Assembly (NCBI RefSeq): GCF_014397005.1
Contig: NZ_JACGWS010000018.1
Span: 1 to 64,000, forward strand
Source: Kordia aestuariivivens
GTDB lineage: Bacteria > Bacteroidota > Bacteroidia > Flavobacteriales > Flavobacteriaceae
Direction of reading: 5' to 3'
Length of the DNA stretch: 64,000 bases
Position 1 is the first letter of the stretch; each line of letters starts with the position of its first letter. Below the pieces are notes generated by a model that saw only the letters and a program-made list of their open reading frames with translations, was not told where the DNA came from and searched no databases. Positions 27,461 through 47,522 of the stretch are shown in pieces. A program made the translations under genes and the position numbers.

Positions 27461-27504
27461 ATGATATATGTCATAAATTCCCTGCGTATGGATTCCTAAT
27501 TTTG
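27461..27504 (+). promoter_or_regulatory. Fnr-like site and -7 element of hemN
   Basis: ATGATATATGTCAT (27461-27474) has ATGA/TCAT arms around six bases. TAATTTTG (27497-27504) is a full TAnnTTTG -7 element beginning 29.5 bp from the palindrome centre. Transcription would start near 27509, putting the site close to -41.5, the class II activator position, with a leader of about 15 nt. Confidence 0.75.
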
Positions 27505-27523
27505 GAGTATAATAAAATTAGGT

Positions 27524-28885
27524 ATGTGTAATTTAGTAAATAAATATAATGTAGCGGGACCACGTTATACAAGTTATCCAACGGTTCCGTATTGGAATAT
27601 GAACACGTTTTCATTGAAAAAGTGGAAACAATCTTTGCAACAATCATTCAACGAAAGTAATAATGCAGAAGGAATCAGTTTGTATATCCATTTGCCTTTT
27701 TGCGAAAGTTTGTGTACGTTTTGCGGTTGCAATAAACGCATTACCAAACGACACGAAGTGGAACAACCTTACATCAGCGCATTATTAAAAGAATGGTCGT
27801 TGTATTGTGATGTATTAGGCGCAATTCCAAAAATTAAAGAATTACATATTGGTGGTGGAACACCCACGTTTTTTTCTCCAGAACATTTACAACAATTGAT
27901 AAAAGGTTTGCTTCGCAATGCAACGTTGGCAGAAAATTACGAATTTAGCTTTGAAGGTCATCCAAATAATACTACCGAAGCACACTTGCAAACCTTATAT
28001 GATGTAGGTTTTAGACGTGTGAGTTTTGGTGTGCAAGATTACAATGAAACGGTTCAGAAAGCAATTCATAGAATACAACCATTTGAAAATGTACAACGTG
28101 TGACGGAGCTTGCTCGACAAATTGGCTATACATCCGTAGGACACGATCTTATTTTTGGATTGCCGTTTCAAACGACTGAACATGTACAGGAAACCATTAC
28201 AAAAACAAAATTATTAGCACCCGATCGGATTGCTTTTTATAGCTATGCGCATGTTCCTTGGATAAAAGGAAACGGACAACGCGGTTTTAACGATGAAGAT
28301 CTGCCAACAGCAACCGAAAAAACAGCACAATACAATTTAGGAAAGACATTATTGCAAGAAGCTGATTATACAGATATTGGAATGGATCATTTTGCATTGC
28401 CAACCGATAGTTTGTACACATCCATGATCGAAAAGCGATTGCACAGAAATTTTATGGGCTATACAGCACAAAAAACACAAGTGATGATTGGCTTAGGCGT
28501 TTCATCTATTGGTGATAGTTGGTATGGTTTTGCACAAAATGTGAAGAATATTGAAACCTATTACGGATTGCTGCAAGAAAACATCATTCCGTTAAGTAAA
28601 GGACATCTTTTAAGCGAAGAAGATTTAATCATCAGAAAACATATTTTAAATCTGATGTGTAACTTTAGAACGTCGTGGACTCATGAAACAACTCAGATTC
28701 CTGAATTATCAAATATTACCGAGAAATTAAAAGAATTTCAACGTGATGAATTGATCCAATTAAACAACAACACTTTAATCATTACTAAAAAAGGAAAACC
28801 TTTTGTCCGCAATATTTGTATGGCTTTTGACGTGCTTTTACAACGAAAAAAACCTGGTACACAGTTGTTTTCCATGACTATTTAA
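27524..28885 (+). CDS. hemN: oxygen-independent coproporphyrinogen III oxidase
   Basis: A 453-residue radical-SAM enzyme that makes protoporphyrinogen IX without oxygen. 'IHLPFCESLCTFCGCNK' carries the CxxxCxxC for the [4Fe-4S] cluster, extended by the family's extra Cys. 'HIGGGTPTFFSPEHL' and 'VSFGVQDYNETVQKAIHR' are SAM-binding motifs. The length matches true HemN and not the shorter HemW. It is placed under an Fnr-like site, as expected for an anaerobic heme step that also feeds the cbb3 oxidase. A universal stress protein gene follows 18 bp later. Confidence 0.96.
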   Translation: MCNLVNKYNVAGPRYTSYPTVPYWNMNTFSLKKWKQSLQQSFNESNNAEGISLYIHLPFCESLCTFCGCNKRITKRHEVEQPYISALLKEWSLYCDVLGAIPKIKELHIGGGTPTFFSPEHLQQLIKGLLRNATLAENYEFSFEGHPNNTTEAHLQTLYDVGFRRVSFGVQDYNETVQKAIHRIQPFENVQRVTELARQIGYTSVGHDLIFGLPFQTTEHVQETITKTKLLAPDRIAFYSYAHVPWIKGNGQRGFNDEDLPTATEKTAQYNLGKTLLQEADYTDIGMDHFALPTDSLYTSMIEKRLHRNFMGYTAQKTQVMIGLGVSSIGDSWYGFAQNVKNIETYYGLLQENIIPLSKGHLLSEEDLIIRKHILNLMCNFRTSWTHETTQIPELSNITEKLKEFQRDELIQLNNNTLIITKKGKPFVRNICMAFDVLLQRKKPGTQLFSMTI

Positions 28886-28903
28886 ACTTAAAAAACGAAA
28901 CAG

Positions 28904-29737
28904 ATGAAAAAAATTATTGTACCCATAGATTTCTCGATACATTCAGAATATGCATTAGAAGCTGCAGCTATTTTGGCGCGCAAGCACAACGCGGAAATTT
29001 TAGCATTACACATGTTAGAATTATCAAACGCCTTGATTTCTGAAGATATGAATTCGAAACAAGCTGAAGCTGTTTTTTACTTGAAATTAGCCGAGCAGAA
29101 GTTTACTGAATTTTTAGAAAAACCATTTTTAGAAGGCGTAGACGTAACGCCTATTGTAAAACATTTTAAAGTGTTTAGCGAAGTCAATGATGTGGCTAAA
29201 GAACATAATGCAGACTTAATTGTAATGGGCTCACATGGCTCTAGCGGAATAAAAGAAGTTTTTATAGGATCGAATACAGAAAAAGTAGTGCGTCATTCAG
29301 ACATTCCGGTATTGGTCATTAAGCACAATCCTATTTTGATGGACTTTGAAAAGGTGGTTTTTGCGAGTGATTTTTCAAAAGAAGCAATCAAACCCTATAT
29401 CAACGCTTCGAGTTTATTTAAAAAGCTTGGCGCAAAGGTACACTTGGTCTATGTTAACTTACCAGGGTCAAGTTTCAAGAGTTCGTCTGAAATAGAAATT
29501 AAAGTTGCCGATTTCTTGAAAGTTGCCGATGGGAATTTAGACAATATGAATAACGTTCATTATGTAAACGATTATTCTATTGAGCAAGGTATTTTAAACT
29601 TTGCCAGTGCCGAAAATGCAGATTTAGTTGCTGTTGCAACACACGGACGCAAAGGATTGGCACACTTTTTTGAAGGAAGCATTTCAGAAGATATTGCAAA
29701 CCATTCGGTATTGCCCGTAATGACATTTAGGATATAA
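28904..29737 (+). CDS. universal stress protein, tandem-domain
   Basis: A 277-residue protein of two Usp domains (about 1-143 and 150-277). The first ends in the ATP-binding pattern 'VMGSHGSSGIKEVFIGSNTEKVVRHSDIPVLVI', the second in 'AVATHGRKGLAHFFEGSISEDIANHSVLPVMTF'. Such proteins bind ATP and aid survival under oxygen limitation or respiratory stress. Cotranscription with hemN would place it under the Fnr-like site. Confidence 0.92.
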   Translation: MKKIIVPIDFSIHSEYALEAAAILARKHNAEILALHMLELSNALISEDMNSKQAEAVFYLKLAEQKFTEFLEKPFLEGVDVTPIVKHFKVFSEVNDVAKEHNADLIVMGSHGSSGIKEVFIGSNTEKVVRHSDIPVLVIKHNPILMDFEKVVFASDFSKEAIKPYINASSLFKKLGAKVHLVYVNLPGSSFKSSSEIEIKVADFLKVADGNLDNMNNVHYVNDYSIEQGILNFASAENADLVAVATHGRKGLAHFFEGSISEDIANHSVLPVMTFRI

Positions 29738-29770
29738 GATTGTTAGTTAATCTTTATTTATTGTTTAAAA

Positions 29771-29802
29771 AGCAGGAAAATTTCCAGATTTCCTGCTTTT
29801 TT
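29771..29802 (+). terminator. intrinsic terminator of hemN-usp
   Basis: AGCAGGAAA pairs with TTTCCTGCT across a 9-nt loop and is followed by six T. Confidence 0.88.
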
Positions 29803-29827
29803 GGTTATAATTCAAACTCTTACATTT

Positions 29828-29859
29828 TTTGAAATATAAAGTTTTAGTTTGTATATTTG
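29828..29859 (+). promoter_or_regulatory. toxin-antitoxin promoter
   Basis: TTTG (29828-29831), a 20-bp spacer and TATATTTG (29852-29859) match the Bacteroidota TTTG-N19/20-TAnnTTTG promoter exactly. The antitoxin start is 17 bp downstream. Confidence 0.75.
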
Positions 29860-29876
29860 ATTAAAAGCAATATAAA

Positions 29877-30416: not shown

Positions 30417-30517
30417 GTTTAAATTCTTATAGATTTAGCAATGGTAATTTTTTAAGTATAGATATAATAGAACTCACAAAGATTCTTGCTATATGTGTAC
30501 TCTCATTAAGAAAAAAA

Positions 30518-31552: not shown

Positions 31553-31598
31553 AAAAACAAACTTAAAAGGAAAATCAGTTTTTAATACGAACCCAAAA

Positions 31599-32111: not shown

Positions 32112-32134
32112 TTCGATTTACGAAAATTTTATTA

Positions 32135-32962
32135 TCATGGATGCGTTACCAACAAAGGTCTTTTTAACGATTTGCTGATTTCTGTAGTAGATGAATGTTT
32201 GAATAAACGCTCAAAGACCGATTCTTTTTGTACAATGAGTCCAATCATATCAATAGTATGCATTTGCATGTACACCGTTTTTACGTAATGCAACGGCACA
32301 TTTTCAATAACATGATAGGTATAGTTTACCTCTTTGAAGTGTTTCATTAAATACGATTCGTCATAGCGATCGCCATCCATTCCTTTTTCATACACACGCA
32401 GTATATGGACTTCTATATTGTGATGTTTCGCTGTCTCTAAAATAGTTGTGAATGCTTCACTTTGAATGTCATCTTTCGTGTCAAGCGGTAATAACATGGT
32501 TTTTGGTGGTAGAAATTTTACATCTTCCGGAATGACCAACGTTGTACAATTGATTCTTCTAATAATACTTAAGGTATGACTTCCAAAGATGATTTCAGCT
32601 GCATTGGAAGCACCATTATATCCAGCGACTAACAACTGAATTTCTTTCGATTCAATAATACTATCGGTTGCTTCAATAAAGCTATTATAATCAAGAATAC
32701 CATGAAACTCGTGTTTGTCATTGTCAGACAGTTTTTCCAACTCTTCTTTAAAAGTATGCAAGCGTTGTTTTTCAGCCTTTAATATACTTTCATAAACATT
32801 AGCAGTAGCGGTAGACATTAAATCATCCATGGTAAAAGTTCCCGATTTGTGAACGTGCATCACATAAAAACAACAGGTTTGGTTTTTTAGAAAATTGATC
32901 GCATACTGCGCCGCATTACGTGAACACGGAGAGAAATCGGTAAGTATTAAAACATTTTTCAT
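32135..32962 (-). CDS. universal stress protein, tandem-domain
   Basis: A 275-residue protein with two Usp-like domains. The first has 'VLILTDFSPCSRNAAQYAINFL' and 'LLVAGYNGASNAAEIIFGSHTLSIIRRINCTTLVIP'; the second is more diverged and lacks a clear G-x-x-G-x9-G/S loop. It lies 40 bp downstream of the CBS protein gene on the same strand and would share its Fnr-like promoter. Confidence 0.85.
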   Translation of the reverse strand: MKNVLILTDFSPCSRNAAQYAINFLKNQTCCFYVMHVHKSGTFTMDDLMSTATANVYESILKAEKQRLHTFKEELEKLSDNDKHEFHGILDYNSFIEATDSIIESKEIQLLVAGYNGASNAAEIIFGSHTLSIIRRINCTTLVIPEDVKFLPPKTMLLPLDTKDDIQSEAFTTILETAKHHNIEVHILRVYEKGMDGDRYDESYLMKHFKEVNYTYHVIENVPLHYVKTVYMQMHTIDMIGLIVQKESVFERLFKHSSTTEISKSLKRPLLVTHP

Positions 32963-33002
32963 GATGTGTTTTTTAATGTATTTCGCTACTGCTTTTTATT
33001 GT

Positions 33003-33422
33003 TTAAAATTGATCTAATAAGTAGTTAATTAAATCGGTTGTTGTCAAAATTCCAACCAACTTTCCATTATCTACAACTGGTAATGCATGAAACTCTTTTT
33101 TAGCCAAAATTTCTGCCGCTTCTTTAATCAATGTATCCGAAGTGATGCTGATTAAATTTTTAGCCATTACTTGTTCTATGGTAAACATATTGTATACAAT
33201 AGTTTCTACTTCTTCATCGCCTTCGTCCGTTGCATCTGCAAAGCTAATACGCAGTAAATCGGTATAACTCAACATTCCAATAATAGCATCACCACTAACT
33301 ACAGGAATATGGCGAATGTTTTTCGTTTTAAATAAACGTTCTGCCGTATCTAAACTATCTGTATGGTTTAAGGTAATAACCTCTGCCGTCATAATTGTTG
33401 AAACTGGTGTTCTTTTTTTCAT
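33003..33422 (-). CDS. CBS-domain pair protein
   Basis: A 139-residue protein that is just two CBS domains: 'VSTIMTAEVITLNHTDSLDTAERLFKTKNIRHIPVV' and 'VMAKNLISITSDTLIKEAAEILAKKEFHALPVVDNGKLVGILTTTDLI'. CBS pairs sense adenine nucleotides such as AMP, ATP or SAM. It heads a two-gene unit with the Usp gene, divergent from the GCS2-CBS gene across one shared regulatory site. Confidence 0.9.
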   Translation of the reverse strand: MKKRTPVSTIMTAEVITLNHTDSLDTAERLFKTKNIRHIPVVSGDAIIGMLSYTDLLRISFADATDEGDEEVETIVYNMFTIEQVMAKNLISITSDTLIKEAAEILAKKEFHALPVVDNGKLVGILTTTDLINYLLDQF

Positions 33423-33448: not shown

Positions 33449-33522
33449 TAAAGGTAGTAATGAAGTTGAAAAACCACTATGACATTTATCATGTTAAGAT
33501 ACAAAACTAAATAGTAATTTTA
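33449..33522. promoter_or_regulatory. symmetric divergent promoter with one Fnr-like site
   Basis: ATGACATTTATCAT (33479-33492) is centred at 33485.5. Rightward, TAATTTTA (33515-33522) begins 29.5 bp from the centre. Leftward on the minus strand, TACCTTTA (33456 to 33449) begins 29.5 bp from the centre. A single dimer could thus activate both the CBS-usp unit and the GCS2-CBS unit from about -41.5. Confidence 0.75.
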
Positions 33523-33543: not shown

Positions 33544-35406
33544 ATGGGATCACAATCAGTAAAAGCGATTGATACAGAAGCACAACGAAAGGAATTCACG
33601 AAGCAATTATTGCATGATATTGAAGCCTTAGCTACGATGATAGAAACAGATGATTTTGAAAAAGGAATTCAACGTATTGGTGCCGAACAAGAAATGTGTA
33701 TTGTAGATCCATTTTACAGACCTTCTTTTAATGCCTTAGAAATTTTGGACGAAATTAATGATCCACATTTTACTACAGAATTAGGGTTGTTTAATATGGA
33801 AGCAAATTTGGATCCGTTAGAACTTGAAGGCAATTGTTTTTCTCAACTTGAAAATGATCTTACAGATTTACTCGCAAAAGCACATGCCGCTTCTGAAAAG
33901 ATTGAAAACAATAAAATTGTCCTCGCTGGAATATTACCAACTTTCAAGCGTAGCGATTTAATTTTTGAAAATATGACACCACATCAACGCTACAGAACGT
34001 TGAATGATATCTTGAAAAAGATAAAAGGCAATGATTTTAAGTTGCGAATTAGAGGTGTTGACGAACTTATTTTACATCACGAATCCATATTGTTTGAAGC
34101 GTGCAACACCAGTTTTCAAGTGCATTTACAAATCGGATTAGACGATATTATTGATAAGTACAATTGGTCGCAAGCCATTGCCGGACCCGTTTTATCCGTC
34201 ATGACAAATGCGCCCATGTTGTTAGGAAAAGAATTGTGGAGTGAAACACGTATTGCGCTTTTTCAGCAAAGTGTAGATCAACGAAATACTTCCCATTTAT
34301 TACGAGAACAAAAACCGAGAGTTTCCTTTGGAACCGATTGGATTCGAAATTCTATTTTGGATGTTTTTACGGATGATATTACACGCTATAAAGCATTAGT
34401 CACCACCGATTTTGAAGGAAACTCCGTGGACGATTTAGCCAATGGAATAAAACCAAAGTTAAAAGCATTGAATCTTCATAACGGCACACTTTACAAGTGG
34501 AATAGAGTCTGTTATGGAGTTGCCAAAAACGTAGCACACTTACGTATTGAAAACAGATACATTCCAGCTGGACCAAGTATTAAAGATGAAATTGCAAATG
34601 CATTGTTTTGGGTTGGTGTCATGCAAGGAATGCCTGATAACTATAAAAACATTTGGGAAAAAATGGATTTTAAAGATGCGCGTGGAAATTTTATCAAAGC
34701 AGCACGTACGGGAATCGATTCGTATTTTAATTGGTTTGGCAAAGGAATGTCCGCAAAGGAACTAGCATTAGAAGTTTTGATTCCCATGGCAAAAAAAGGA
34801 TTGAAAAAATCGAATGTTAGTGATGTTGATATTGTTTATTATTTAGGCATTATAACACAACGGATCAAAAATAATATCACGGGAAGTAAATGGCAAATTC
34901 GCAGTTCTCGAAAACTTAAAGAAACCATTTCTGCTGAAGAAACAAATATTTTATTGACGTATAATTTACATAAAAATCAACTTCAAAATATTCCTGTCCA
35001 TCAATGGGAATTGGCAACATCTTCAGCTAATGAAGAAACACATTCACACAATAAAATGTATAAAGTAATGACGAAAGAAGTGTATGTTGTGAATGAAGAT
35101 GATTTGGTTTCGTTAATTGAAAAAATAATGGATTGGAAAAATATTCACCATCTTCCAGTAGTGAATGTCGATAATAAAATTGTAGGGATTATATCTGCGA
35201 CAAATTTAGCTGCAAATACACAACCCGATGCGTTTGTAAAAGACATTATGAGCAGCGATGTAATTGTCGGTTATCCTGAGATGACTGTGGAAGAAGCCGA
35301 AAAACAAATGACAGCAAATAATGTAGCTTGTTTGCCTATTTTAGACAATGATTATTTAGTAGGTATCTTTACAAAAAATGATCTTCTAAAGATCCAAAAC
35401 AACTAA
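33544..35406 (+). CDS. GCS2-type carboxylate-amine ligase fused to CBS domains
   Basis: A 620-residue fusion. Residues about 30-420 match glutamate-cysteine ligase family 2 ('RIGAEQEMCIVDPFYRPSFNALEIL', 'GLFNMEANLDPLELEG', 'SFQVHLQIGLDDIIDKYNWSQAIAGPVLSVMTNAPML', 'RIENRYIPAGPSIKDEIANALFW'). Residues about 500-620 are two CBS domains ('VMTKEVYVVNEDDLVSLIEKIMDWKNIHHLPVV', 'DIMSSDVIVGYPEMTVEEAEKQMTANNVACLPIL'). The reaction is probably ATP-dependent amide formation on an amino acid, allosterically set by nucleotides; the exact substrate is not known. An AstE/AspA-like hydrolase gene follows 20 bp later. Confidence 0.85.
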   Translation: MGSQSVKAIDTEAQRKEFTKQLLHDIEALATMIETDDFEKGIQRIGAEQEMCIVDPFYRPSFNALEILDEINDPHFTTELGLFNMEANLDPLELEGNCFSQLENDLTDLLAKAHAASEKIENNKIVLAGILPTFKRSDLIFENMTPHQRYRTLNDILKKIKGNDFKLRIRGVDELILHHESILFEACNTSFQVHLQIGLDDIIDKYNWSQAIAGPVLSVMTNAPMLLGKELWSETRIALFQQSVDQRNTSHLLREQKPRVSFGTDWIRNSILDVFTDDITRYKALVTTDFEGNSVDDLANGIKPKLKALNLHNGTLYKWNRVCYGVAKNVAHLRIENRYIPAGPSIKDEIANALFWVGVMQGMPDNYKNIWEKMDFKDARGNFIKAARTGIDSYFNWFGKGMSAKELALEVLIPMAKKGLKKSNVSDVDIVYYLGIITQRIKNNITGSKWQIRSSRKLKETISAEETNILLTYNLHKNQLQNIPVHQWELATSSANEETHSHNKMYKVMTKEVYVVNEDDLVSLIEKIMDWKNIHHLPVVNVDNKIVGIISATNLAANTQPDAFVKDIMSSDVIVGYPEMTVEEAEKQMTANNVACLPILDNDYLVGIFTKNDLLKIQNN

Positions 35407-37510: not shown

Positions 37511-38212
37511 TCAATGACAATTCATCACATTCGTAACCATTCCAGCATTTGGAGCTGGAGAAATATACGGAATGCCCAAACCTAAGCCACGAAGAATAAA
37601 TAACACACCAATAATTACTACAAATACGGGAATTGCTTTTTGAATGCGTTGTTTGATAGAAGTGTTCAGGAATTTTCCAACGTAAATTGCAGTGGTCATT
37701 AACGGAATGGTTCCCAAACCAAAAAAGAGCATGTATAAACTTCCTTGCCACATACTTCCAAGAGCAATGGCGCCAAAAACTGCCATGTAGACCAATCCGC
37801 AAGGGAGCAATCCGTTTAAAAATCCGATGGTGAAAAAAGTATCTAGACTTTTCTTTTTAAATTGCTTTCCTAAGCTCGATTTTACCTTTGAAATGATTCT
37901 GTAAATAGGTTTTGAAAAGTTGTACTTACTGAATGTTTTATACGGAATACTAATTGCAACAATCATCACAATACCAATTATAATAGATAAACGTTGTTGC
38001 ATTCCAAAAATGTACAGACTTTTGCCAAGCAATCCAAAAATAAACCCGATCGTTGCATAGGAAAGCAATCTTCCTGTATGATACAGTAAAATTTGTGCTA
38101 CTTTTTTATAGCTATTCGTTCTATCTACGGGCAACATAAACGCAATTGGCCCGCACATACCTACGCAGTGAAAACTTCCCAAAAGTCCTAATAAAAATCC
38201 CGTAGCGATCAT
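37511..38212 (-). CDS. SafE/TauE-like membrane protein of the cco cluster
   Basis: A 233-residue protein with about six membrane segments. 'GLLGSFHCVGMCGPIAFMLP' at the N terminus is the hallmark of the DsbD/CcdA-like 'urease accessory transport' group linked to cbb3 oxidases, with a Cys-containing first helix. 'GLLPCGLVYMAVFGAIA' gives a second Cys. Relatives handle copper or reductant for oxidase assembly. It is the last gene of the operon, 9 bp after ccoH. Confidence 0.85.
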   Translation of the reverse strand: MIATGFLLGLLGSFHCVGMCGPIAFMLPVDRTNSYKKVAQILLYHTGRLLSYATIGFIFGLLGKSLYIFGMQQRLSIIIGIVMIVAISIPYKTFSKYNFSKPIYRIISKVKSSLGKQFKKKSLDTFFTIGFLNGLLPCGLVYMAVFGAIALGSMWQGSLYMLFFGLGTIPLMTTAIYVGKFLNTSIKQRIQKAIPVFVVIIGVLFILRGLGLGIPYISPAPNAGMVTNVMNCH

Positions 38213-38221
38213 CTTTTATGC

Positions 38222-38668
38222 CTAATATGTTATTTCTTCTTTGTATAAATAATACTCTTTTTTGTAATTCCAATCCACGGTAATGTTCCAGCGACCACCT
38301 AATAAACGATTGTCAGGTATGAGCAATGTGTGGTTTGATAACGAGATTGGAATCTCGAAATCGAATTGTCTATTAGATGGTCTATATAGGAACACTTTTC
38401 CTTTTATATTTTCAACAGCAAACGTTTCTGGAAAGGTAATTTCTATCCCTGCTGCTGTTTGTTTTGATGTCACATTTTGCAGTAACTTTTGTGCATTTCG
38501 TTGCTTATCAATATCTTTTTGATATTTTAATTCTTCCTCATAATAGGAATCTGTCACCAAATCATGATCGTACTCTGATTGCACATTCATGCGCACTACA
38601 AAAAACATAATAAAGCTTATAAACGCTATAAATGCTAATACAATTCCTGTTCCCCAATTTATTTTCAT
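38222..38668 (-). CDS. ccoH: FixH/CcoH family cbb3 oxidase assembly protein
   Basis: A 148-residue protein with one N-terminal membrane segment ('GIVLAFIAFISFIMFFVVRM') and a periplasmic beta domain ending 'GRWNITVDWNYKKEYYLYKEEITY', typical of FixH. CcoH stabilises the cbb3 complex during assembly. It is separated from ccoG by 303 bp of repeat-bearing DNA, unusual inside this operon. Confidence 0.88.
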   Translation of the reverse strand: MKINWGTGIVLAFIAFISFIMFFVVRMNVQSEYDHDLVTDSYYEEELKYQKDIDKQRNAQKLLQNVTSKQTAAGIEITFPETFAVENIKGKVFLYRPSNRQFDFEIPISLSNHTLLIPDNRLLGGRWNITVDWNYKKEYYLYKEEITY

Positions 38669-38971
38669 CTGTTCTATTTTTTATGGCATTTCCTCCAATT
38701 ATACTGCTGCTTTGCGCAGTACAATCTCCGGTCAGGCTTTCGGCAGTCGCTTTTGCTCGTCATGCTGAATTTAATTCAGCATCTCACAAAGAGCTCCAAC
38801 AATGCCTCTATCCTTAATGCGGGTTTTAGCTTTTATATTACCATTGCGAAAATTTTCACATTTTAGTCTTTCTGTTTCAAAGTAGTTCTCGATACGATTT
38901 TCTCTCAAAAATCACTCAACCTGACGTTCATTTATACTACGCTAAACAAACAACCAAAAAGCAGCAACTAA
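38669..38971. other. non-coding gap inside the cco operon
   Basis: No gene is seen. It holds a small hairpin (CTGC/GCAG near 38705) and the palindrome TGCTGAATTTAATTCAGCA (38763-38781), which matches the common dispersed 'TCATGCTGAAYTTNATTCAGCATCTC' repeat of flavobacteria. It breaks an otherwise tight gene series. Confidence 0.6.
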
Positions 38972-40396
38972 TTAGTTATAACTCGTGGGTCCTAAGAAAT
39001 TCACCGAAGTGGTTTCTATAAGTTTGTCTTTGCTGTATATATCAATTGTGATATAATTTTTCCCGCTTTTTAAATCGCTTTTATCTATTTCCAGAAATAA
39101 AGTTCCTTTTGCAATTCCTTGTTTCGGAATGATAAATTCGTTGGTTGTTGCTGCCAATTTTATAGTTCCTTTTACCTTTCGCATTCTAAACTGAACATCT
39201 GGAATGGCTTCTGTTGTTTTGTTGACCAATTTATAGGTAAATACATTGCTGATTCGGTTGCCTTCTTTTAGCTCGTATAATTGTCCTGATAGACGTAAAA
39301 TATTTGCTTCTACATCATTTCTAATTAGCAACATTCCGATCAACACACCAATTAAAATGACTAAAACCGCCGTATATCCTTTTAATCGTGGTGTAAATTT
39401 GAACTTCTCTTTCTTTTCAATTTCATCTTCACTTGCAAAACGAATCAATCCTTTTGGCAAGTCTACCTTTTCCATAATGTCATCGCACTCGTCAATACAC
39501 GCGGTACAATTAACACATTCGAGTTGTGTTCCGTTTCTAATGTCAATTCCTGTTGGACACACATTCACACATTGAAAACAATCAATACAATCACCATGAC
39601 CTAATTCGGCTCTGTCTTCATTTTTCCGAATCTTTTTACGTCCGTTTTCGCCTTCTCCACGTTTGTGATCGTACGCTACTATAATCGATTTATTATCTAA
39701 TAACACGCCTTGCAATCTTCCGTAAGGACACGCAATAATACATACTTGCTCACGAAACCATGCAAATACAAAGTAGAATACCGCTGTAAAGATCAGTAAT
39801 GGAAATAAGGTTCCCAAGTGTTTAAAAGGTCCGTCAACAATATCTTGAATGAGTTCATCACTTCCAATTAAATAGGCTAGGAATGCATTCGCAATTGCAA
39901 AAGAAATGATCAAGAAAATAAACCATTTTAAAAGCCGTTTCTTAATTTTTTCAGCATTCCAAGCTTGTTTTTCCAATCGGATTTGTTTTCCTCTATCGCC
40001 TTCAATCCAATATTCAATCCGACGGAAAACCATTTCCAAAAAGATCGTTTGTGGACACATCCAACCGCAAAATATTCTCCCAAATGCTACTGTAAACAGC
40101 GCAATGAAAATAACGCCAATAATCATGGAGATTACTACCAAATGAAAATCTTGTGGCCAGAATGGAAATCCAAAAATATTGAAACGACGTTCCAATACAT
40201 TCATTAGTAAAAACTGGTTTCCGTTTATTTTTACAAACGGAGCGGCAAATAGAAATACTAACAATACATAACTGACGATTTTTCGCCATTCATAATACTT
40301 GCCGCTCGGTTTTTTTGGATACACCCAAGCACGTTTTCCATCTTCATTTATTGTTCCAATGGAATCTCTAAATATTTCGTTTTTTGGTGTTTCCAA
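38972..40396 (-). CDS. ccoG: cytochrome c oxidase accessory protein CcoG
   Basis: A 474-residue membrane ferredoxin. It has about five membrane segments and a NapH-like region with 'FGRIFCGWMCPQTIFLEMVFRRIEYWIEG' and 'CIIACPYGRLQG'. Two clusters follow in 'CIDCFQCVNVCPTGIDIRNGTQLECVNCTACIDECD', and an Ig-like C-terminal domain closes the protein. CcoG is the copper reductase that helps load CuB of cbb3 oxidase. It follows ccoP by 15 bp. Confidence 0.95.
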   Translation of the reverse strand: METPKNEIFRDSIGTINEDGKRAWVYPKKPSGKYYEWRKIVSYVLLVFLFAAPFVKINGNQFLLMNVLERRFNIFGFPFWPQDFHLVVISMIIGVIFIALFTVAFGRIFCGWMCPQTIFLEMVFRRIEYWIEGDRGKQIRLEKQAWNAEKIKKRLLKWFIFLIISFAIANAFLAYLIGSDELIQDIVDGPFKHLGTLFPLLIFTAVFYFVFAWFREQVCIIACPYGRLQGVLLDNKSIIVAYDHKRGEGENGRKKIRKNEDRAELGHGDCIDCFQCVNVCPTGIDIRNGTQLECVNCTACIDECDDIMEKVDLPKGLIRFASEDEIEKKEKFKFTPRLKGYTAVLVILIGVLIGMLLIRNDVEANILRLSGQLYELKEGNRISNVFTYKLVNKTTEAIPDVQFRMRKVKGTIKLAATTNEFIIPKQGIAKGTLFLEIDKSDLKSGKNYITIDIYSKDKLIETTSVNFLGPTSYN

Positions 40397-40411
40397 AATT
40401 ATTTTTGTTGT

Positions 40412-41356
40412 TTATTCTTTGACTTCTACTTTTATAGAATCTGTCGCCTTTATATTTTCATCAACTGCTGTTGGTGCGACCCAAATTTCGCCTTCTGCTG
40501 CTTTTGGTTCGGCTGGCGTCGTTCCTTGAAACGACAATATATAACTCGACACTTGCGCTATTTGAGATGGTTTGAGTCCTTTTTTAGACCACGCTTCCAT
40601 TCCTTTTCCGCTTCGTCCACCTTTGGAAACCGTTTTAAATACATTGTTGATGCCGCCGCCTAAAATCCAATGTTTATCCGTCAAATTTGGACCAATTCCA
40701 CCACCACCATCTGCTTTGTGACACGCAACACAGTTTGCAGTGTAAATTTCTTGTCCAGCTCTTAAATCAGAAGCTTCTGTAAGCAATACAACACTTTTAT
40801 AATCGACAAGGTCTTTTGCTGTTTTTAGGTATTCTTCATACGCTGCTTTTGCTTCTACGTATTCTACTTCCATGGCTTCAATTTGCGTTTGACCGCCAAA
40901 TACATGATAGTTGAGCAGATACACAACCGCAAAAATTATGGAGATGTAAAAACTGTATATCCACCATGGTGGTAAGTTGTTGTCTAGCTCTTTGATGCCA
41001 TCATAATCATGATCTAATATAATTTCAGCTTCTTCCTCAATAGGTTTAGATCCTAGCAATTTTTTGTAGGTTTTCTTAACCCAGTTGATCAATTTGTATT
41101 CTGGAACTTTATTTTTCTTTTCGAGGTAACTCACTTTTTGTTCCTCTGTTAAACCGTTTAATAAGATGCGTTCTAATGCAGCCACAATACCTTCTATTGC
41201 TATTAGTACTAATATGACTAATAGTAAGAATAGCATTATCATTGGTTCTGCCATATATGCTGGTTGATCTCCAGAGTCGACAAAATATTCAATAGCGCCA
41301 AAAATCAGAAAGAATATGACCAAGACACGAATCCAGGATGGAATTAAATTTCTCAT
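40412..41356 (-). CDS. ccoP: cbb3 oxidase subunit III (CcoP), monoheme form
   Basis: A 314-residue subunit. It has two N-terminal membrane segments, a cytoplasmic stretch, then 'LPPWWIYSFYISIIFAVVYLLNYH', the CcoP anchor. One c-type heme site follows, 'NCVACHKADGGGGIGPNLTDKHWI'. Proteobacterial CcoP has two CxxCH motifs; only one is present here, as is common in Bacteroidota. The extra N-terminal helices resemble a fused CcoQ-like piece. The start overlaps the ccoQ stop by 4 bp. Confidence 0.93.
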   Translation of the reverse strand: MRNLIPSWIRVLVIFFLIFGAIEYFVDSGDQPAYMAEPMIMLFLLLVILVLIAIEGIVAALERILLNGLTEEQKVSYLEKKNKVPEYKLINWVKKTYKKLLGSKPIEEEAEIILDHDYDGIKELDNNLPPWWIYSFYISIIFAVVYLLNYHVFGGQTQIEAMEVEYVEAKAAYEEYLKTAKDLVDYKSVVLLTEASDLRAGQEIYTANCVACHKADGGGGIGPNLTDKHWILGGGINNVFKTVSKGGRSGKGMEAWSKKGLKPSQIAQVSSYILSFQGTTPAEPKAAEGEIWVAPTAVDENIKATDSIKVEVKE

Positions 41357-41546: not shown

Positions 41547-43754
41547 TTATTTTTCAGTGGTTAGTTTTGAATCTTTTACTTTGATGTCTGTTCCTAATCG
41601 TTGCAAGTATGCAATCAATGCAATGATTTCACGATCTTTTACTGCGATGAATGCTGCTCCTTCAGCAGTAGCTTCCTGTTCTGCTTGTTCAAAAGAAGCT
41701 GCCAAATCTGGATCTTCTTTTAGGTTTTTAACGATTCCAATAGCTTGCTCGTCCATGTATTGTAAGGCATCTATAATTTCTTGCTCTGTGTATGGAACTC
41801 CAAGCGTAACCATAGCGCGCATTTTAGCTTGCGTCATTGATGTATTGAGTTCATTTCGAATTAACCATGGATAAGCTGGCATAATCGATTTTTCTTCAAT
41901 TCCTCTAGGATCGTACATGTGCTTAAAGTGCCACGAATCTGACTTCTTTAGCTTATCTGTTCCTTCACGATGTAAATCGGGTCCGGTACGTTTACTTCCC
42001 CATAAGAATGGATGATCGTACACAAATTCTCCTGCTTTGGAATATTCGCCATAGCGTTCTACTTCACTTCTAAACGGACGAATCATTTGTGAGTGACAAC
42101 CGACACAACCTTCTCGGATGTAGAGATCTCTCCCTTCGAGTTCTAATGGTGTGTATGGTTTGACTTCCGTGATTGTTGGAATGTTAGAATCAATCATTAA
42201 TGTGGGCACTATTTGTACAATTCCACCAATTAAGATGGCAACCGTAGCATAAATAGTCAGTTTGATTGGTTTACGCTCTAACCATGTATGCCATCCTTCT
42301 CCAGAGGTACGTTTTTTAGATACACGTTGCAATGCTGGAGCTTCTGCTAATTCGTCTGCTACTTTGTTTTTTGATGTTACAATCGTTTTTACTATGTTGT
42401 ATGCTAAGAAGAACATTCCAAATATGTATAGTGAACCTCCAATAGCTCGCATCCAATACATTGGCATTATTTCCGTAACTGTTTCTAAGAAGTTTGCGTA
42501 GACTAAATTTCCATCAGGATTGAATTGTTTCCACATAAATGCTTGTGTAAATCCTGCCACATACATTGGTAATGAATAAATTACAATTCCTAAGGTTCCT
42601 ATCCAGAAATGCGCATTTGCCAATCCTTTTGAATATAGTTTTGTTTTGAAGAGTCTTGGTACCAACCAATAGATCATACCGAAGGCTAAGAAACCATTCC
42701 ATGCCAAGGCTCCAACGTGAACGTGTGCAATAATCCAGTCTGTATAGTGCGCAATAGCATTTACATTTTTTAAGGATAACATTGGCCCTTCAAAGGTTGC
42801 CATACCGTATCCAGTAATCGCAACGACCATGAATTTTAATACAGGATCGGTTCGTACTTTATCCCATGCGCCACGGAGCGTTAGCAATCCGTTGATCATT
42901 CCTCCCCAAGAAGGCATTAATAACATGACAGAGAAGGCAACTCCTAAGTTTTGTGCCCATTCTGGTAATGCCGTATATAATAAGTGATGCGGTCCTGCCC
43001 AGATATAGATAAATATTAGTGACCAAAAGTGTACAATAGATAGTCGATACGAATAAATAGGTCTGTTTGCCGCTTTCGGAATGAAGTAATACATCAATCC
43101 CAAGAATGGTGTTGTTAGGAAGAACGCAACCGCGTTGTGTCCGTACCACCATTGCACTAAAGCATCTTGTACACCTGCGTATACTGAATAACTTTTTAAT
43201 GCACTTACTGGCAATTCTAAACTGTTGAAAATATGCAATACAGCAACCGTTACAAAGGTGGCAAGGTAAAACCAAACCGCTACATATAAGTGACGTTGTC
43301 TTCTTTTTAAGATGGTCCAAATCATGTTGACTCCAAAAGCAACCCAAATGATTGCAATAGCAATATCAAATGGCCATTCTAATTCGGCATATTCTTTAGA
43401 GGTTGTATAGCCTAATGGTAAGGTTATTGCGGCTCCAACAATGATGATTTGCCATCCCCAAAAGTTAATTTTACTTAGTAAGTCACTTGCCATTCGCGCT
43501 TTTAGCAGTCGTTGTAACGAATAGTACACACCTGCAAAGATGGCGTTTCCGACAAAGGCAAAGATCACTGCGTTGGTATGTAATGGACGCAAACGTCCAA
43601 AACTTAACCAAGAAATTCCTTCCCCTATCGTTGGAAATAGAAATAGTAATGCTAATAATAACCCAACTGACATTCCTACTATTCCCCAAATTATGGTGGC
43701 GTAGATGAAGTTTTTAACGATTTTATTATCGTAATAAAATTGTTGTATTTCCAT
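41547..43754 (-). CDS. ccoN: fused cbb3 oxidase subunits I and II (CcoN-CcoO)
   Basis: A 735-residue fusion. Residues 1 to about 475 are CcoN, with about 12 helices and heme/CuB ligands in 'RLRPLHTNAVIFAF', 'QWWYGHNAVAFFLTTPF', 'IWAGPHHLLYT' and 'HVHVGALAWNGFLAFG'. From about 500, CcoO starts with an anchor helix ('IYATVAILIGGIVQIVPTLMI') and carries the heme c site 'EGCVGCHSQMIRPFRSEVERYG'. It is the catalytic core of a high-affinity terminal oxidase reducing oxygen in the inner membrane. The fusion is usual in Bacteroidota. Confidence 0.96.
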   Translation of the reverse strand: MEIQQFYYDNKIVKNFIYATIIWGIVGMSVGLLLALLFLFPTIGEGISWLSFGRLRPLHTNAVIFAFVGNAIFAGVYYSLQRLLKARMASDLLSKINFWGWQIIIVGAAITLPLGYTTSKEYAELEWPFDIAIAIIWVAFGVNMIWTILKRRQRHLYVAVWFYLATFVTVAVLHIFNSLELPVSALKSYSVYAGVQDALVQWWYGHNAVAFFLTTPFLGLMYYFIPKAANRPIYSYRLSIVHFWSLIFIYIWAGPHHLLYTALPEWAQNLGVAFSVMLLMPSWGGMINGLLTLRGAWDKVRTDPVLKFMVVAITGYGMATFEGPMLSLKNVNAIAHYTDWIIAHVHVGALAWNGFLAFGMIYWLVPRLFKTKLYSKGLANAHFWIGTLGIVIYSLPMYVAGFTQAFMWKQFNPDGNLVYANFLETVTEIMPMYWMRAIGGSLYIFGMFFLAYNIVKTIVTSKNKVADELAEAPALQRVSKKRTSGEGWHTWLERKPIKLTIYATVAILIGGIVQIVPTLMIDSNIPTITEVKPYTPLELEGRDLYIREGCVGCHSQMIRPFRSEVERYGEYSKAGEFVYDHPFLWGSKRTGPDLHREGTDKLKKSDSWHFKHMYDPRGIEEKSIMPAYPWLIRNELNTSMTQAKMRAMVTLGVPYTEQEIIDALQYMDEQAIGIVKNLKEDPDLAASFEQAEQEATAEGAAFIAVKDREIIALIAYLQRLGTDIKVKDSKLTTEK

Positions 43755-43778
43755 AATGATACTTATTTATTTTTGTGG

Positions 43779-43949
43779 TTAGTTCTCTTTTTTTGGTTTG
43801 TCTTTTACCAATTCATCTTCAAATAACATGCGCACCGATGGCGTGTAACTATCGTCAAATTGTCCGTTTTTAACCGCTATGATAAATGCGACAAAAAAGA
43901 ATATTGCGACCACAATACTGATGGTTAGTAAAACATATATAACACTCAT
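43779..43949 (-). CDS. ccoS: cbb3 oxidase maturation protein CcoS
   Basis: A small gene of 56 residues: 'MSVIYVLLTISIVVAIFFFVAFIIAVKNGQFDDSYTPSVRMLFEDELV'. One N-terminal membrane helix is followed by the CcoS signature 'AVKNGQFDD...P..R+L'. CcoS is needed for cofactor insertion into the oxidase. It is the first gene of the cco operon, 24 bp before ccoNO, with the Fnr-like promoter right upstream. Confidence 0.92.
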   Translation of the reverse strand: MSVIYVLLTISIVVAIFFFVAFIIAVKNGQFDDSYTPSVRMLFEDELVKDKPKKEN

Positions 43950-44364
43950 ACCTATTGAAGTTATGGTTCAAAATTACGTTTGCATAGATTCCTAAAAAAT
44001 GACTTTTATCATGTTTTAGGTTTAATTCATAGTTTGATTTAGTTTAGGATGATTCTTTATAAGAAATTATGATCTAAACTTTTTTGAATACTGTAATGAG
44101 ATGTTGAGCTTCGATAAACTCAGCATACAAGCATTACGACTGTTATGAAAATTGTTTCTTAAGAAGCAGATTCCTTCGTCGCTTAAGCTTCTTGAAATAC
44201 ATAATAAAATTGTCTCCTCGAGCGCAGTCGAGAGGTAATTTGACTCATTGCTTTTATTGAGTCTCGATAGCTACGCTAGGTATTTTCAATCAAAATATAT
44301 TTTGATTTCAATAATGCTCGACTTGACATTTGTTATAATTAGCTAGAACTGTATGAAACTATAA
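43950..44364. other. intergenic region between ccoS and ccoI
   Basis: It holds the cco promoter at its left end (43969-44012). The remainder shows only dispersed repeat fragments: 'TTGAGCTTCGATAAACTCAGC' type near 44104 and 'CTCGAGCGCAGTCGAGAG' (44217-44234), the latter a near-perfect palindrome. No gene is seen. It separates ccoI, which has its own promoter, from the oxidase operon. Confidence 0.6.
43969..44012 (-). promoter_or_regulatory. Fnr-like site and -7 element of the cco operon
   Basis: ATGACTTTTATCAT (43999-44012) is centred at 44005.5. On the minus strand TAATTTTG (43976 to 43969) is a full -7 element that begins exactly 29.5 bp from the centre. The predicted start is about 15 nt before ccoS. 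This is the same geometry as at hemN. Confidence 0.78.
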
Positions 44365-46749
44365 TTACTTTAGCTTCCTCCCTACAATCGTTGTGCAAAC
44401 CGTTGTAAATAGCACAATACTTATAGAACTTAATGGCATTAAAATAGCCGCGATGACAGGTGCTAATTGTCCTGTGATGGCAAAGTATAATCCGATTGTA
44501 TTGTAAATGAATGAGAGCACGAAACTCCATTTGATGATTTTTATGGCGGATTTGGAAGCGTTCAGATAGCGATCTAATTGATTGAATTTAGAAGCATCTA
44601 ATATCGCGTCACACGCAGGAGAAAATACGTTTACGTTTTCCGACAAGGCAATTCCAACATCGCTTTGCGCTAACGCACCTGCATCATTTAGTCCATCGCC
44701 AATCATTACGATATTTGCGCCTTCTGCTTGATGGTATTTTATATATTCTAGTTTATCGTTTGGCTTTTGGTTGAAAATTAATTTTGTTTTAGACGGCAAT
44801 AGTTTTTTAAGGTTTTCGCGTTCGCCTTCATTATCTCCCGAAAGGATTGCCAAATCATACGTTTTTTTGAGTTTATTGAATAGTTTAGATAAGCCTTTTC
44901 GATATGAATTATAGAACGTATATTTTCCTTTGTATGTATCGTTTGCACTAATGTGAACCGTTGTGTTTAGAATGGTTGTTCTGTCTTCATGACCAACAAA
45001 TTTCGCCGCACCAACTTTGATATGATCGTTGTGGTAACGTGCCGTCATTCCTTTGCCTACATGTTCTTCAAATTGATCTAGTGTGACAATATTTTGTTCG
45101 TCTAAAATGTCATATAGTGTTCTACTCAGCGGATGATTGGAACCGCGCAAGGTGTTTTTCAACAAGGTAGATTCGGCAGTCGTTAGTTGTTCGCCTTCAT
45201 AGCTTGCCGTACTTTTTTGATTGGACGTAATCGTTCCTGTTTTGTCAAATATAATCGTGTTGATGGTTGCTAGTTTTTCTAGAACGCTCGCATTTTTTAC
45301 ATAGAATTTTAGCTTTCCGAAGATTCGTAATAGGTTTCCATACGTAAATGGTGCTGCCAACGCAATCGCGCATGGACAGGCAATGATTAAGACTGCTGTG
45401 AATACATTCATCGCTTTGGAAGCATCAAACCATAACCAAAATAAAGTCGCTACAAACGCAATTGTCAAGACCGTAATCGTAAAGTGTTTACTGATCGCAT
45501 TTGTGAGTGTTGTAAAACTTTCTTCTTTGTTTTTGTCGAATATTGCATTGCTCCATAATTGTGTGAGATAACTTTGTTCTACCGATTTGATCGTTTCTAT
45601 TTCAATGATTCCTGAGGTTTGTTTGCCGCCTGCAAATACTTTATCTCCCGATTGTTTTTGAACCGTTTCCGATTCGCCCGTGACAAAACTGTAATCGATA
45701 GAAGCATTTCCATTAATCAGGATTCCATCTACAGGAATGAGTTCTTCGTTTCTGATGAGTATCCGATCGCCTTTTTCAATATCATAGACTTGAATTGGCG
45801 TTTCTTTTCCGTTCAAAATTTTCGTGACTGCAATTGGAAAGTACGATTTGTAATCACGTTCAAAGGATAGAAATGTGTATGTTTTTTGTTGGAAAAATTT
45901 ACCCAGTAATAGAAAAAAGACCAATCCCGTAAGGCTATCAAAAAAACCTGAACCGAGATCAAATATGATTTCCACAGCACTTCTTATGAATAACACAAAA
46001 ATTCCCAACGCAATCGGCACATCAATGTTGAGCAATTTTGCGCGCAAGCCTTTGTAGGCTGAGATAAAATAATCTTGCGCAGCATAGAAAACTACAGGAA
46101 GCGAAAAGGCAAACATTAACCAACGGAAAAGTGGTTTGTATTGTTCTATCCAAAATCCGCTGACTTGAAAATATTCGGGAAATGATAGAAACATCACATT
46201 TCCAAACGCAAATCCGGCAATTCCAAGTTTGTAAATGAGCGTACGGTTGATTTTGTTTTTTCCAGTTGCATAATCGTCCAAACTTATGTACGGTTCGTAG
46301 CCTATTTTGCTCAGTAATAAAACGGCTTCTTTTAGTGAAAAAGTCGTTGCATTGTAGGTGATTCGGACTGTTTTTTTGCCAAAATTGACTTGTGAAGTTG
46401 AGATTTCTGGATTGAGTTTGTGTAAGTTTTCCAAAATCCATATACACGAACTGCAATGAATATGCGGAATGTACAACGTGACTATTTGCGTAGTTTCATC
46501 ATTAAATTCCAGCAGCTTGTCAATGATATTTTGTTGTGTTAGGAAGTCATATTTCCCTGCTATTTCTTTTGGAATTGCACCTGGAGACGCTTGTAAATCG
46601 TAGTAGCACGACAAATCGTTTTCCGAAAATAATTCGTACACCGTTTTGCATCCAAAACAACAAAAAGATTTTTCTTCTAGTTGAATGATTTCTGACTCGC
46701 ACGCATCACCACAATGAAAACATGTAGTTTGTTTCATAGTATTGCTCAT
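44365..46749 (-). CDS. ccoI: cbb3-type oxidase copper-transporting P-type ATPase (CcoI/FixI)
   Basis: A 794-residue P1B-type ATPase. The N terminus has 'TCFHCGDACESE...CCFGCKTVYEL', an extra metal-binding region typical of FixI, then an HMA-like 'HIHCSSCIWILENLHKL'. Eight membrane helices surround 'IACPCAIALAAP', the ion-binding CPC. 'FDKTGTIT' is the phosphorylation site and 'MIGDGLNDAGALAQSDVGIAL' the hinge. It exports copper for the oxidase. The frame starts close to the predicted transcript start, so the second Met (residue 5) may be the true start. Confidence 0.95.
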   Translation of the reverse strand: MSNTMKQTTCFHCGDACESEIIQLEEKSFCCFGCKTVYELFSENDLSCYYDLQASPGAIPKEIAGKYDFLTQQNIIDKLLEFNDETTQIVTLYIPHIHCSSCIWILENLHKLNPEISTSQVNFGKKTVRITYNATTFSLKEAVLLLSKIGYEPYISLDDYATGKNKINRTLIYKLGIAGFAFGNVMFLSFPEYFQVSGFWIEQYKPLFRWLMFAFSLPVVFYAAQDYFISAYKGLRAKLLNIDVPIALGIFVLFIRSAVEIIFDLGSGFFDSLTGLVFFLLLGKFFQQKTYTFLSFERDYKSYFPIAVTKILNGKETPIQVYDIEKGDRILIRNEELIPVDGILINGNASIDYSFVTGESETVQKQSGDKVFAGGKQTSGIIEIETIKSVEQSYLTQLWSNAIFDKNKEESFTTLTNAISKHFTITVLTIAFVATLFWLWFDASKAMNVFTAVLIIACPCAIALAAPFTYGNLLRIFGKLKFYVKNASVLEKLATINTIIFDKTGTITSNQKSTASYEGEQLTTAESTLLKNTLRGSNHPLSRTLYDILDEQNIVTLDQFEEHVGKGMTARYHNDHIKVGAAKFVGHEDRTTILNTTVHISANDTYKGKYTFYNSYRKGLSKLFNKLKKTYDLAILSGDNEGERENLKKLLPSKTKLIFNQKPNDKLEYIKYHQAEGANIVMIGDGLNDAGALAQSDVGIALSENVNVFSPACDAILDASKFNQLDRYLNASKSAIKIIKWSFVLSFIYNTIGLYFAITGQLAPVIAAILMPLSSISIVLFTTVCTTIVGRKLK

Positions 46750-46761
46750 TTATACCTGTAA

Positions 46762-46805
46762 CAAAGGTTACAAATGAATTGATTTTAAAATATGATATTT
46801 GTCAT
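46762..46805 (-). promoter_or_regulatory. Fnr-like site and -7 element of ccoI
   Basis: ATGATATTTGTCAT (46792-46805) is centred at 46798.5. On the minus strand AACCTTTG (46769 to 46762) begins 29.5 bp away; its TTTG matches but the first base is A and not T. On the plus strand, TAGTTTTA (46814-46821) is a possible -7 for the regulator gene; the site would then overlap that promoter, suiting autorepression. Confidence 0.68.
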
Positions 46806-46844
46806 GCTTTGATTAGTTTTACAGTACTTCAAAAAACAACAACG

Positions 46845-47522
46845 ATGAGTAATTGCGAACAATGTATCATACGACAGTTTAATTCTTTAAAAGCTTTGAC
46901 GAGAGATGAATTGGTTCGTATTTCGGGTTGCAAAACTTCAAAAACCATCAAGAAAGGCGAATTAATTTTTAATGAAGGAGAAAATATAAATGGTGTTTTT
47001 TGTGTGAAAGATGGCGTTTGCAAGTTGACTAAGTTGAGTGCCAATGGAAAGGATCAGATTGTGAAGTTGGTGGTGAAAGGTGATTTGCTCGGGCAAAGAT
47101 CGTTAGTTAGCGATGAAGTCACTAATTTAAGCGCAATAGCTTTAAACGACATGGAAGTTTGTTTTATTCCAAAGCATGAAATTATGAGAGATTTACAGAA
47201 GAATCCGAATTTCACGATGGACGTTTTGCAACAAATGGCAAAAGATTTGAAAGAAGCCGATAACGTGATTGTAAATATGGCGCAAAAATCTGTAAAGCAG
47301 CGTTTGGCGGAAGCCCTTGTATATATTCATACTACATTTGGTACAACCGATGAAGACATGCTTTCGGTTATTCTTTCTCGCGAAGATTATGCAAATATTG
47401 TGGGAACCGCCACCGAATCTGCCATTCGGATTTTATCACAGTTTAAGAAAGATGGTTTTATTTCTACTAAAGGAAAACAAATTAGGATTGAGAATATGAA
47501 TGGTTTGAAGCGTGTGGAATAG
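46845..47522 (+). CDS. Crp/Fnr family transcriptional regulator (Fnr-like)
   Basis: I chose the ATG giving 'MSNCEQC', 225 residues; the frame is open 22 codons further but that part covers the promoter. A cyclic-nucleotide-type beta barrel fills residues 20-120. A winged helix-turn-helix follows at about 170-215 ('LSREDYANIVGTATESAIRILSQFKKDGFI'). Cys4, Cys7, Cys29 and Cys106 could bind an iron-sulfur cluster; Cys106 in 'EVCFIP' aligns with Cys122 of E. coli FNR ('VCEIP'). The recognition helix keeps Glu191 and Arg195, which in FNR and CRP read the GA of the half-site. It is divergent from ccoI across one Fnr-like site and likely controls the whole island. Confidence 0.88.
   Translation: MSNCEQCIIRQFNSLKALTRDELVRISGCKTSKTIKKGELIFNEGENINGVFCVKDGVCKLTKLSANGKDQIVKLVVKGDLLGQRSLVSDEVTNLSAIALNDMEVCFIPKHEIMRDLQKNPNFTMDVLQQMAKDLKEADNVIVNMAQKSVKQRLAEALVYIHTTFGTTDEDMLSVILSREDYANIVGTATESAIRILSQFKKDGFISTKGKQIRIENMNGLKRVE

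Follow-up and report, generated by a model that had tools for sequence, protein, structure and literature searches.

A conserved operator frame of Flavobacteriaceae, likely oxygen-controlled, and its two candidate readers, Fnr and a receiver-CRP fusion

Which regulator reads the operators in front of the cbb3 oxidase genes of Flavobacteriaceae, and do these operators need that one regulator to persist? The question is raised by a 64,000-nucleotide (nt) stretch of Kordia aestuariivivens (contig NZ_JACGWS010000018.1, positions 1 to 64,000; hereafter the window), part of a 5.46-Mb genome in 46 contigs, in which four ATGAY-N4-RTCAT palindromes lie upstream of hemN-usp, of two divergent CBS genes, of the oxidase (cco) operon and between ccoI and fnr, the last encoding a CRP/FNR-family regulator whose nearest named relatives belong to Kordia (K. 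algicida, 84% identity). A first-pass annotation had read this arrangement as an Fnr regulon, a reading that stands as regards geometry, class II position and low-oxygen genes, and falls as regards Fnr as sole reader, the geometry towards fnr and the width of the ATGAY half-site. The sites are likely class II oxygen-controlled operators of Flavobacteriaceae, readable both by Fnr and by REC-CRP, a regulator in which a receiver (REC) is fused straight to cNMP_binding and HTH_Crp_2 domains.

A pattern search of the window found the four palindromes at the places given in the first-pass annotation; they and their promoter elements are as follows.

27461..27474, plus strand: operator palindrome ATGATATATGTCAT, upstream of hemN-usp, with a 22-nt gap to TAATTTTG
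27497..27504, plus strand: -7 element TAATTTTG of hemN; predicted start ~27509, placed with T at -12
33449..33456, minus strand: -7 element TACCTTTA of CBS-usp; 5' end 33456, predicted start ~33444
33479..33492, no strand assigned: operator palindrome ATGACATTTATCAT, with class II geometry to both divergent promoters
33515..33522, plus strand: -7 element TAATTTTA of a CBS open reading frame (ORF) of 620 amino acids (aa); predicted start ~33527
43969..43976, minus strand: -7 element TAATTTTG of the cco operon; 5' end 43976, predicted start ~43964
43999..44012, minus strand: operator palindrome of the cco operon, its gap of 22 conserved across the family
46762..46769, minus strand: -7-like element AACCTTTG of ccoI; 5' end 46769, predicted start ~46757
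46792..46805, no strand assigned: operator common to ccoI and fnr, centred at -41.5 for ccoI and ~-27.5 for fnr
46814..46821, plus strand: -7 element TAGTTTTA of fnr, 8 nt past the palindrome; predicted start ~46826

The palindrome pattern gave five rows in the window (one site matching both strands) against 0.12 expected, and five or more rows occurred in none of 100 shuffles. The distance from palindrome centre to the 5' end of the -7-like element is exactly 29.5 bp in all five promoter directions, as had been claimed, with a rough post hoc chance of 3e-9 that five of eight directions would share any one of 60 offsets. The -7 element of F. johnsoniae promoters spans T-12 to G-5 (PMC6847099, in the parts covered), so that 29.5 bp to the 5' end, taken with T at -12, puts the site centre at -41.5. 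Spacing and flavobacterial numbering together bear out the class II position proposed earlier, the transcript start itself being a prediction. Single palindromes flanked on both sides by gap-22 -7 elements were seen at 33479-33492 of the window and at G000:C45:243389-243402, and one such palindrome may drive two divergent promoters.

The same spacing recurs through the genome. The bare palindrome (ATGAYNTNTRTCAT) is only weakly enriched, with 21 rows genome-wide against 15 for a reversed-pattern control, a point against the reading offered here; it was therefore dropped as genome-wide evidence and replaced by pairs of palindrome and -7 element. The pattern ATGAYNNNNRTCAT followed by TANNTTT at 7-37 nt gave 47 rows in the own genome against 16 reversed-control rows, and 25 of the 47 stood at exactly 22 nt, which equals the 29.5-bp spacing, with every other gap at three or fewer (P ~4e-25 under a flat gap distribution). 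The expectation that hits pile up 29.5 bp before -7 elements thus held for the pairs and was weak for the palindrome alone. Spacing counts and p-values, here and below, treat related genomes as independent, which tempers the case they make.

Beyond the own genome, a scan of 40 genomes that included it (TANNTTTG, gaps 20-24 nt only) placed 122 of 145 rows at 22 nt: 110 of 122 within the genus and family, 12 of 23 in other families of the order. Around 80 named loci, ATGAY-N4-RTCAT occurred at 176 sites, the N5 and N3 versions at 11 and 20, and TTGAY-N4-RTCAA at 6; of the ATGAY/TA..TTTG pairs with gaps 0-60, 81 of 106 were at gap 22. These counts uphold the earlier statement that the half-site is not TTGAT, but ATGAY proved too narrow, since C is common distally: among 94 ccoNO sites (at most one mismatch) the promoter-distal first base is A 56 times, C 34 times, T three times and G once, and 93 of the 94 end in T on the promoter-proximal side. 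In the phylum, 28 of 118 genomes contained a pair with gap 20-24 (11/11 of the family, 2/2 others of the order, 6/16 others of the class and 9/89 of the remainder). These counts led to rejection of a phylum-wide operator rule in favour of one confined to the family.

Conservation at individual loci was assessed after six of 20 relative loci that duplicated named ones had been dropped from the ccoNO, ccoI, Fnr-protein and fnr-promoter sets. An exact site precedes ccoNO in 77 of 85 nonredundant loci and ccoI in 80 of 93, and in 70 distinct aligned ccoNO sites with gap 22 the -7 element never varies at its T, its A or its final TTT (100% each). In related loci, counted with the six duplicates included, gap 22 recurs on the CBS side in 8/8 and on the side of the 620-aa ORF in 3/3.

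The constant geometry first proposed breaks down towards fnr, where no -7 element stands 29.5 bp from the fourth site (46792), TAGTTTTA lying at 15.5 bp instead. This arrangement is itself conserved: in 94 fnr promoter loci, of which 90 carry the site and 89 are distinct, TA..TTT[GA] lies at gap 8 (15.5 bp) in 74 of 89, the next gap having a count of 3. The palindrome would cover the fnr promoter from about -34 to -21, in keeping with repression of fnr by occlusion, and the conserved geometry suggests fnr autorepression. Such a placement favours a view of the palindromes as repressor operators or general promoter parts and not as class II activator sites. That view is very unlikely given the 22-nt gap, which is the exact class II spacing, the N4 spacer (176 sites against the 11 and 20 above), and the family members G014 and G020, which have neither regulator and lack any site at gaps 20-24.

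Whether Fnr is the regulator in question was examined in 199 Flavobacteriaceae genomes of at least 95% completeness, in which Fnr was found in 139 (E<=1e-36), CcoNO in 169 (E<=1e-150) and REC-CRP in 105 (E<=1e-45). At these thresholds the 169 genomes with cco comprise 66 with Fnr and REC-CRP, 68 with Fnr only, 35 with REC-CRP only and none with neither, and the 30 without cco comprise one with both, four with Fnr only, three with REC-CRP only and 22 with neither. Within the cco-bearing genomes, Fnr and REC-CRP cover for each other (p 1.5e-9).

The earlier view of Fnr as sole reader is not supported by this comparison, because genomes without fnr keep the operators and their spacing and all 35 such genomes with cco have REC-CRP. 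Three Kordia genomes (G004, in one contig, G006 and G007) contain ccoNO and ccoI with a best Fnr match no stronger than E 2.6e-26; no Fnr was found upstream of their ccoI (the G007 contig ends ~0.8 kb past the site), and both the ccoI and the ccoNO operator are present at gap 22 in all three, the ccoI -7 element of G007 reading GACCTTTG. In G017, from another genus and also without Fnr, the operators are CTGATCCAGGTCAT (ccoI) and CTGATCGAGGTCAT (ccoNO), each with the 22-nt gap.

For a comparison by class, upstream regions were taken from 34 of the 35 fnr-less genomes with cco (G238 had no listed place) and from three Kordia outside the sample, and set against ccoNO upstreams of 33 Fnr-only genomes and 29 with both regulators, chosen partly by list order and partly because they were already at hand. 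Fnr was seen in 56 of the fetched Fnr-positive loci, and the Fnr-less loci yielded none. When up to one mismatch was allowed over site and element, and two loci that end at contig edges (L271, L285) were scored as misses, gap 22 occurred at ccoNO in 36/37 Fnr-less, 31/33 Fnr-only and 27/29 doubly equipped cases, and at ccoI in 33/34, 29/31 and 26/29, respectively; no other gap in the 10-35 range exceeded 3 in any class at ccoNO or, with its maximum at gap 13, 8 at ccoI. On a quick maximum-likelihood ccoI tree (62 proteins of more than 600 aa), Fnr presence requires 15 changes, at least seven of them forced by well-supported branches.

These counts bear on the possibility that the window-encoded Fnr is the sole reader after all and that the operators of fnr-less genomes are decaying leftovers, which is judged unlikely. 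In its favour, 99 of the 100 Fnr loci fetched (six duplicates included) also contain ccoI, so that fnr is accompanied by its presumed target; Fnr-only genomes retain their ccoNO sites (31/33); and 57 of 58 ccoNO sites with Fnr, against 25 of 36 without, have an N4 spacer lacking G and C. Against it, site and spacing are kept without fnr at both genes over the at least seven changes of Fnr state, REC-CRP is present in all 35 fnr-less cco-bearing genomes of the sample, and in G004, G006 and G007 the fnr-side -7 element, unlike the operators, did decay (it is gone, as judged by eye, and the ccoI side is kept). Spacers containing G/C number 11/36 without Fnr and 1/58 with it at ccoNO (p 8e-5), and 9/33 and 5/55 at ccoI (p 0.035), both p-values being uncorrected for relatedness. 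A spacer code, in which A/T-only spacers would denote Fnr and G/C REC-CRP, was rejected, as the difference is a tendency only and Fnr-only genomes in the 40-genome set have G/C in 5/29; it is retained as a tendency towards relaxation.

The second candidate reader is encoded in the own genome by CRP paralogues on contigs 17 and 8, which are REC-CRP fusions adjoining histidine kinases. A REC-CRP match is present in 11/11 Kordia genomes (with an in-frame stop in G005), each of which also has a gap-22 site no more than ~0.7 kb from that gene. The G005 locus, L187, has no fnr or ccoNO match in its genome, a stop within the REC-CRP hit and a kinase match in two pieces, and the pathway is possibly decaying there. 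The PAS domain of the contig-8 kinase has mostly the oxygen sensors DosP and FixL as its solved relatives, and its His83 and Arg103 align with the DosP His and Arg, making it a putative heme-PAS kinase with the axial His expected of a FixL cascade. In 40 fetched REC-CRP loci (33 fnr-less, seven with fnr), the helix Ala, Glu, Ile and Arg and the receiver Asp are present in 40/40 and the helix Thr in 35; the A, E, I and R of Fnr are thus kept by REC-CRP in the 33 fnr-less cco-bearing genomes examined. The kinase on contig 17 is larger and of a multi-PAS/GAF type, so not every REC-CRP fusion need be oxygen-driven. A second REC-CRP with a multi-PAS kinase (L065 10214-14132; L069) was noticed amid stress-type ORFs that appear, by eye, DnaJ-like, Hsp20-like, phosphotransacetylase-like and acetate-kinase-like, with gap-22 sites such as ATGACCTAGATCATTT nearby.

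It could be argued that a third regulator reads the sites and that Fnr and REC-CRP merely co-occur with a microaerobic lifestyle, for genomes have several CRP-family matches each and some fnr-less genomes hold another Fnr-like protein. This too is improbable, as none of the 169 cco-bearing genomes lacks both regulators at the thresholds used, the two cover for each other as described, they have the helix A, E, I and R in common, and REC-CRP has a gap-22 operator close by throughout Kordia. A CRP paralogue beside efflux-type genes (G004, G007) was considered as a replacement Fnr and disfavoured, having no N-terminal cysteine pair and a Lys in the helix; the exact site was not found in the fetched stretch around it.

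The window Fnr has the cNMP_binding and HTH_Crp_2 (Crp-type helix-turn-helix) domains that the FNR family requires, and scores 93.3 bits against PRK11161, the NCBIfam Fnr subfamily, below the curated cut-off of 228. In an alignment of 95 proteins (the window Fnr and those of 94 loci), Cys4, Cys7, Cys53 and Cys106 are invariant, Cys29 of the window protein is present in 87 and Cys59 in 90. A solved FNR-type regulator has cysteines aligned with Cys4, Cys7 and Cys106. Fnr (46845-47522) possibly has a rearranged iron-sulphur ligand set, in which Cys53 may be the fourth cluster ligand, as the general jelly-roll strand order would put the Cys53 strand next to the Cys106 strand. Fnr probably senses oxygen directly through an iron-sulphur cluster, with a changed set of cysteines. 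The recognition-helix Glu and Arg singled out in the first-pass annotation are conserved as Glu191 and Arg195 in 95/95, as is Ile194; the E..SR helix and TTGAT half-site of FNR are absent, Ile standing at the Ser position and the half-site being MTGAY.

The proposed mechanism is that a dimeric CRP/FNR-type activator at -41.5 would recruit RNA polymerase with the primary sigma factor of the phylum at the TAnnTTTG -7 element. Its reader could be either the window-encoded Fnr or the REC-CRP fusion beside the FixL/DosP-type heme-PAS kinase, which would unite FixJ and FixK in a single protein. Either reader by itself seems sufficient to retain the cco operators, and many genomes carry both. At the ccoI/fnr site the bound activator would turn ccoI on and hold fnr down by overlap at about -27.5. 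It is on balance probable that one frame is read interchangeably by two oxygen sensors whose chemistry is unrelated, a cysteine-rearranged Fnr and a FixL-like heme kinase with its fused regulator, Fnr having been repeatedly swapped or lost as the -41.5 position stayed constant and the central four bases relaxed.

Several further observations weigh against this account. The sites, the 22-nt gap, their conservation and the regulator genes are read directly from sequence, and from these binding, transcript starts, activation and oxygen control are deduced; the identity of the reader in fnr-less genomes is likewise suggested by gene presence and helix residues. The absence of cco-bearing genomes with neither regulator is bound to the thresholds, as G159, with cco and without REC-CRP, was counted Fnr-positive through a match of 43% confined to residues 34-222, and G173 through one of 35%. 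When 34 fnr-less cco-bearing genomes (all except G017) were searched again at E<=1e-12, 33 gave matches, none stronger than 1.7e-36; in G169, G203, G229 and G233 the best match was a receiver-less CRP-family protein 31-37% identical to Fnr, in frames of 237-256 aa that are too short for a receiver fusion, and in the remaining 29 it lay in a frame of at least 348 aa, as REC-CRP does. Some Kordia (G002, G004, G007) have a further CRP paralogue with Lys in the helix. The kinase keeps the heme-His position in 38/40 REC-CRP loci, leaving two without it, and the Arg position in just 31/40. The four cysteines of E. coli FNR (presumably C20, C23, C29 and C122) are not all matched in the window Fnr, in which a C29 equivalent is absent. 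The first base of the ccoI -7 element is seldom T. Finally, the hemN site is at gap 22 in 8/8 other Kordia upstreams examined and in 2/9 outside Kordia, so hemN is no stable regulon member beyond the genus and a family-wide hemN operator was rejected.

Class II promoters of E. coli FNR carry TTGAT-N4-ATCAA at -41.5, and the family operators resemble them in the N4 dimer site, the -41.5 centre, the CRP/FNR fold and the helix Glu and Arg. They differ in an outer base that is A or C and not T, in a -7 element TAnnTTTG in place of a -10, in the Ile that replaces FNR Ser212 and in an Fnr with no Cys29 equivalent and an invariant Cys53 instead.

The closest design is rhizobial, where FixL-FixJ-FixK and FnrN converge on the anaerobox upstream of fixNOQP and fnrN is auto-repressed, so that a FixL-type kinase path and a cysteine-cluster Fnr meet on one cbb3 operator (PMC7888657, in the parts covered). 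Unlike in rhizobia, receiver and CRP-type part are one protein, with no separate FixJ driving a separate fixK, either pathway may be missing, and operator letters, sigma factor and phylum differ; direct reading of the cco operator by both regulators would apply here. TAnnTTTG with T at -12 matches Bacteroidota primary-sigma promoters, and the covered parts of the papers on these promoters describe no CRP/FNR operator geometry (PMC6847099; PMC9723704). MalR-type CRP/FNR homologues for carbon sensing are predicted in Flavobacteriales from a Bacteroides-derived motif; they belong to the same family and order, and their operator and gene set differ (PMC8510549, in the parts covered). Literature searches, mostly without subscription papers, returned no described flavobacterial Fnr operator and no REC-CRP/FixL pair. 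The testable rule MTGAY-N4-RTCAT, 22 nt, TAnnTTTG would allow low-oxygen regulons to be read in a large family for which these searches returned no described CRP/FNR operator, and the family would provide a natural experiment in which a regulon survives replacement of its own regulator. The REC-CRP fusion would equal a shortened rhizobial FixL-FixJ-FixK cascade, and the altered Fnr cysteine set poses a direct biochemical question.

The genes behind the sites support the low-oxygen gene set proposed earlier and are, in order along the window:

27524..28885, plus strand: hemN-like radical SAM ORF (Radical_SAM domain; hemN name from the first-pass annotation)
28904..29737, plus strand: universal stress protein with two Usp stretches (domain search)
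32135..32962, minus strand: universal stress protein, downstream of the CBS ORF (domain search)
33003..33422, minus strand: CBS-domain protein (domain search)
33544..35406, plus strand: 620-aa ORF with CBS domains (hmmscan)
37511..41356, minus strand: remaining cco cluster, with ccoP, ccoG, ccoH (FixH domain) and a 233-aa membrane protein, the names other than FixH being presumed
41547..43754, minus strand: ccoNO fusion of the cbb3 oxidase (COX1 and FixO; domain search)
43779..43949, minus strand: small, presumably ccoS-like ORF, first gene of the cco operon (from its translation)
44365..46749, minus strand: ccoI-type P-type ATPase (domain search)
46845..47522, plus strand: fnr, CRP/FNR-family regulator with Cys4, Cys7, Cys53 and Cys106 (domain search)

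The ccoS-like ORF begins at 43949, ~15 nt past the predicted cco start. The label 'GCS2', given earlier to the ORF at 33544-35406, was not confirmed, as hmmscan returned CBS domains only. Under oxygen limitation, F. psychrophilum strongly raises cbb3 expression and also raises its heme-synthesis genes (PMC9723704, in the parts covered), expression evidence from within the family that favours oxygen control of the operators. Near fnr, a 494-aa ORF at 50888-52372 resembles, by eye, a large serine recombinase, and a mobile element is possible there.

A wider regulon, for low oxygen or stress, is suggested by the other ORFs behind gap-22 sites in the own genome, whose products include a cytochrome c, thioredoxin and CBS proteins, proteins that look Usp-like by eye, an MlaE permease, a PCMT protein and an FtsH-like AAA protein. 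Two adjacent, similar repeat-protein genes carry identical 43-bp site and -7 sequences (G000:C6:137882-137924 and C6:140155-140197), perhaps through a recent duplication together with the promoter.

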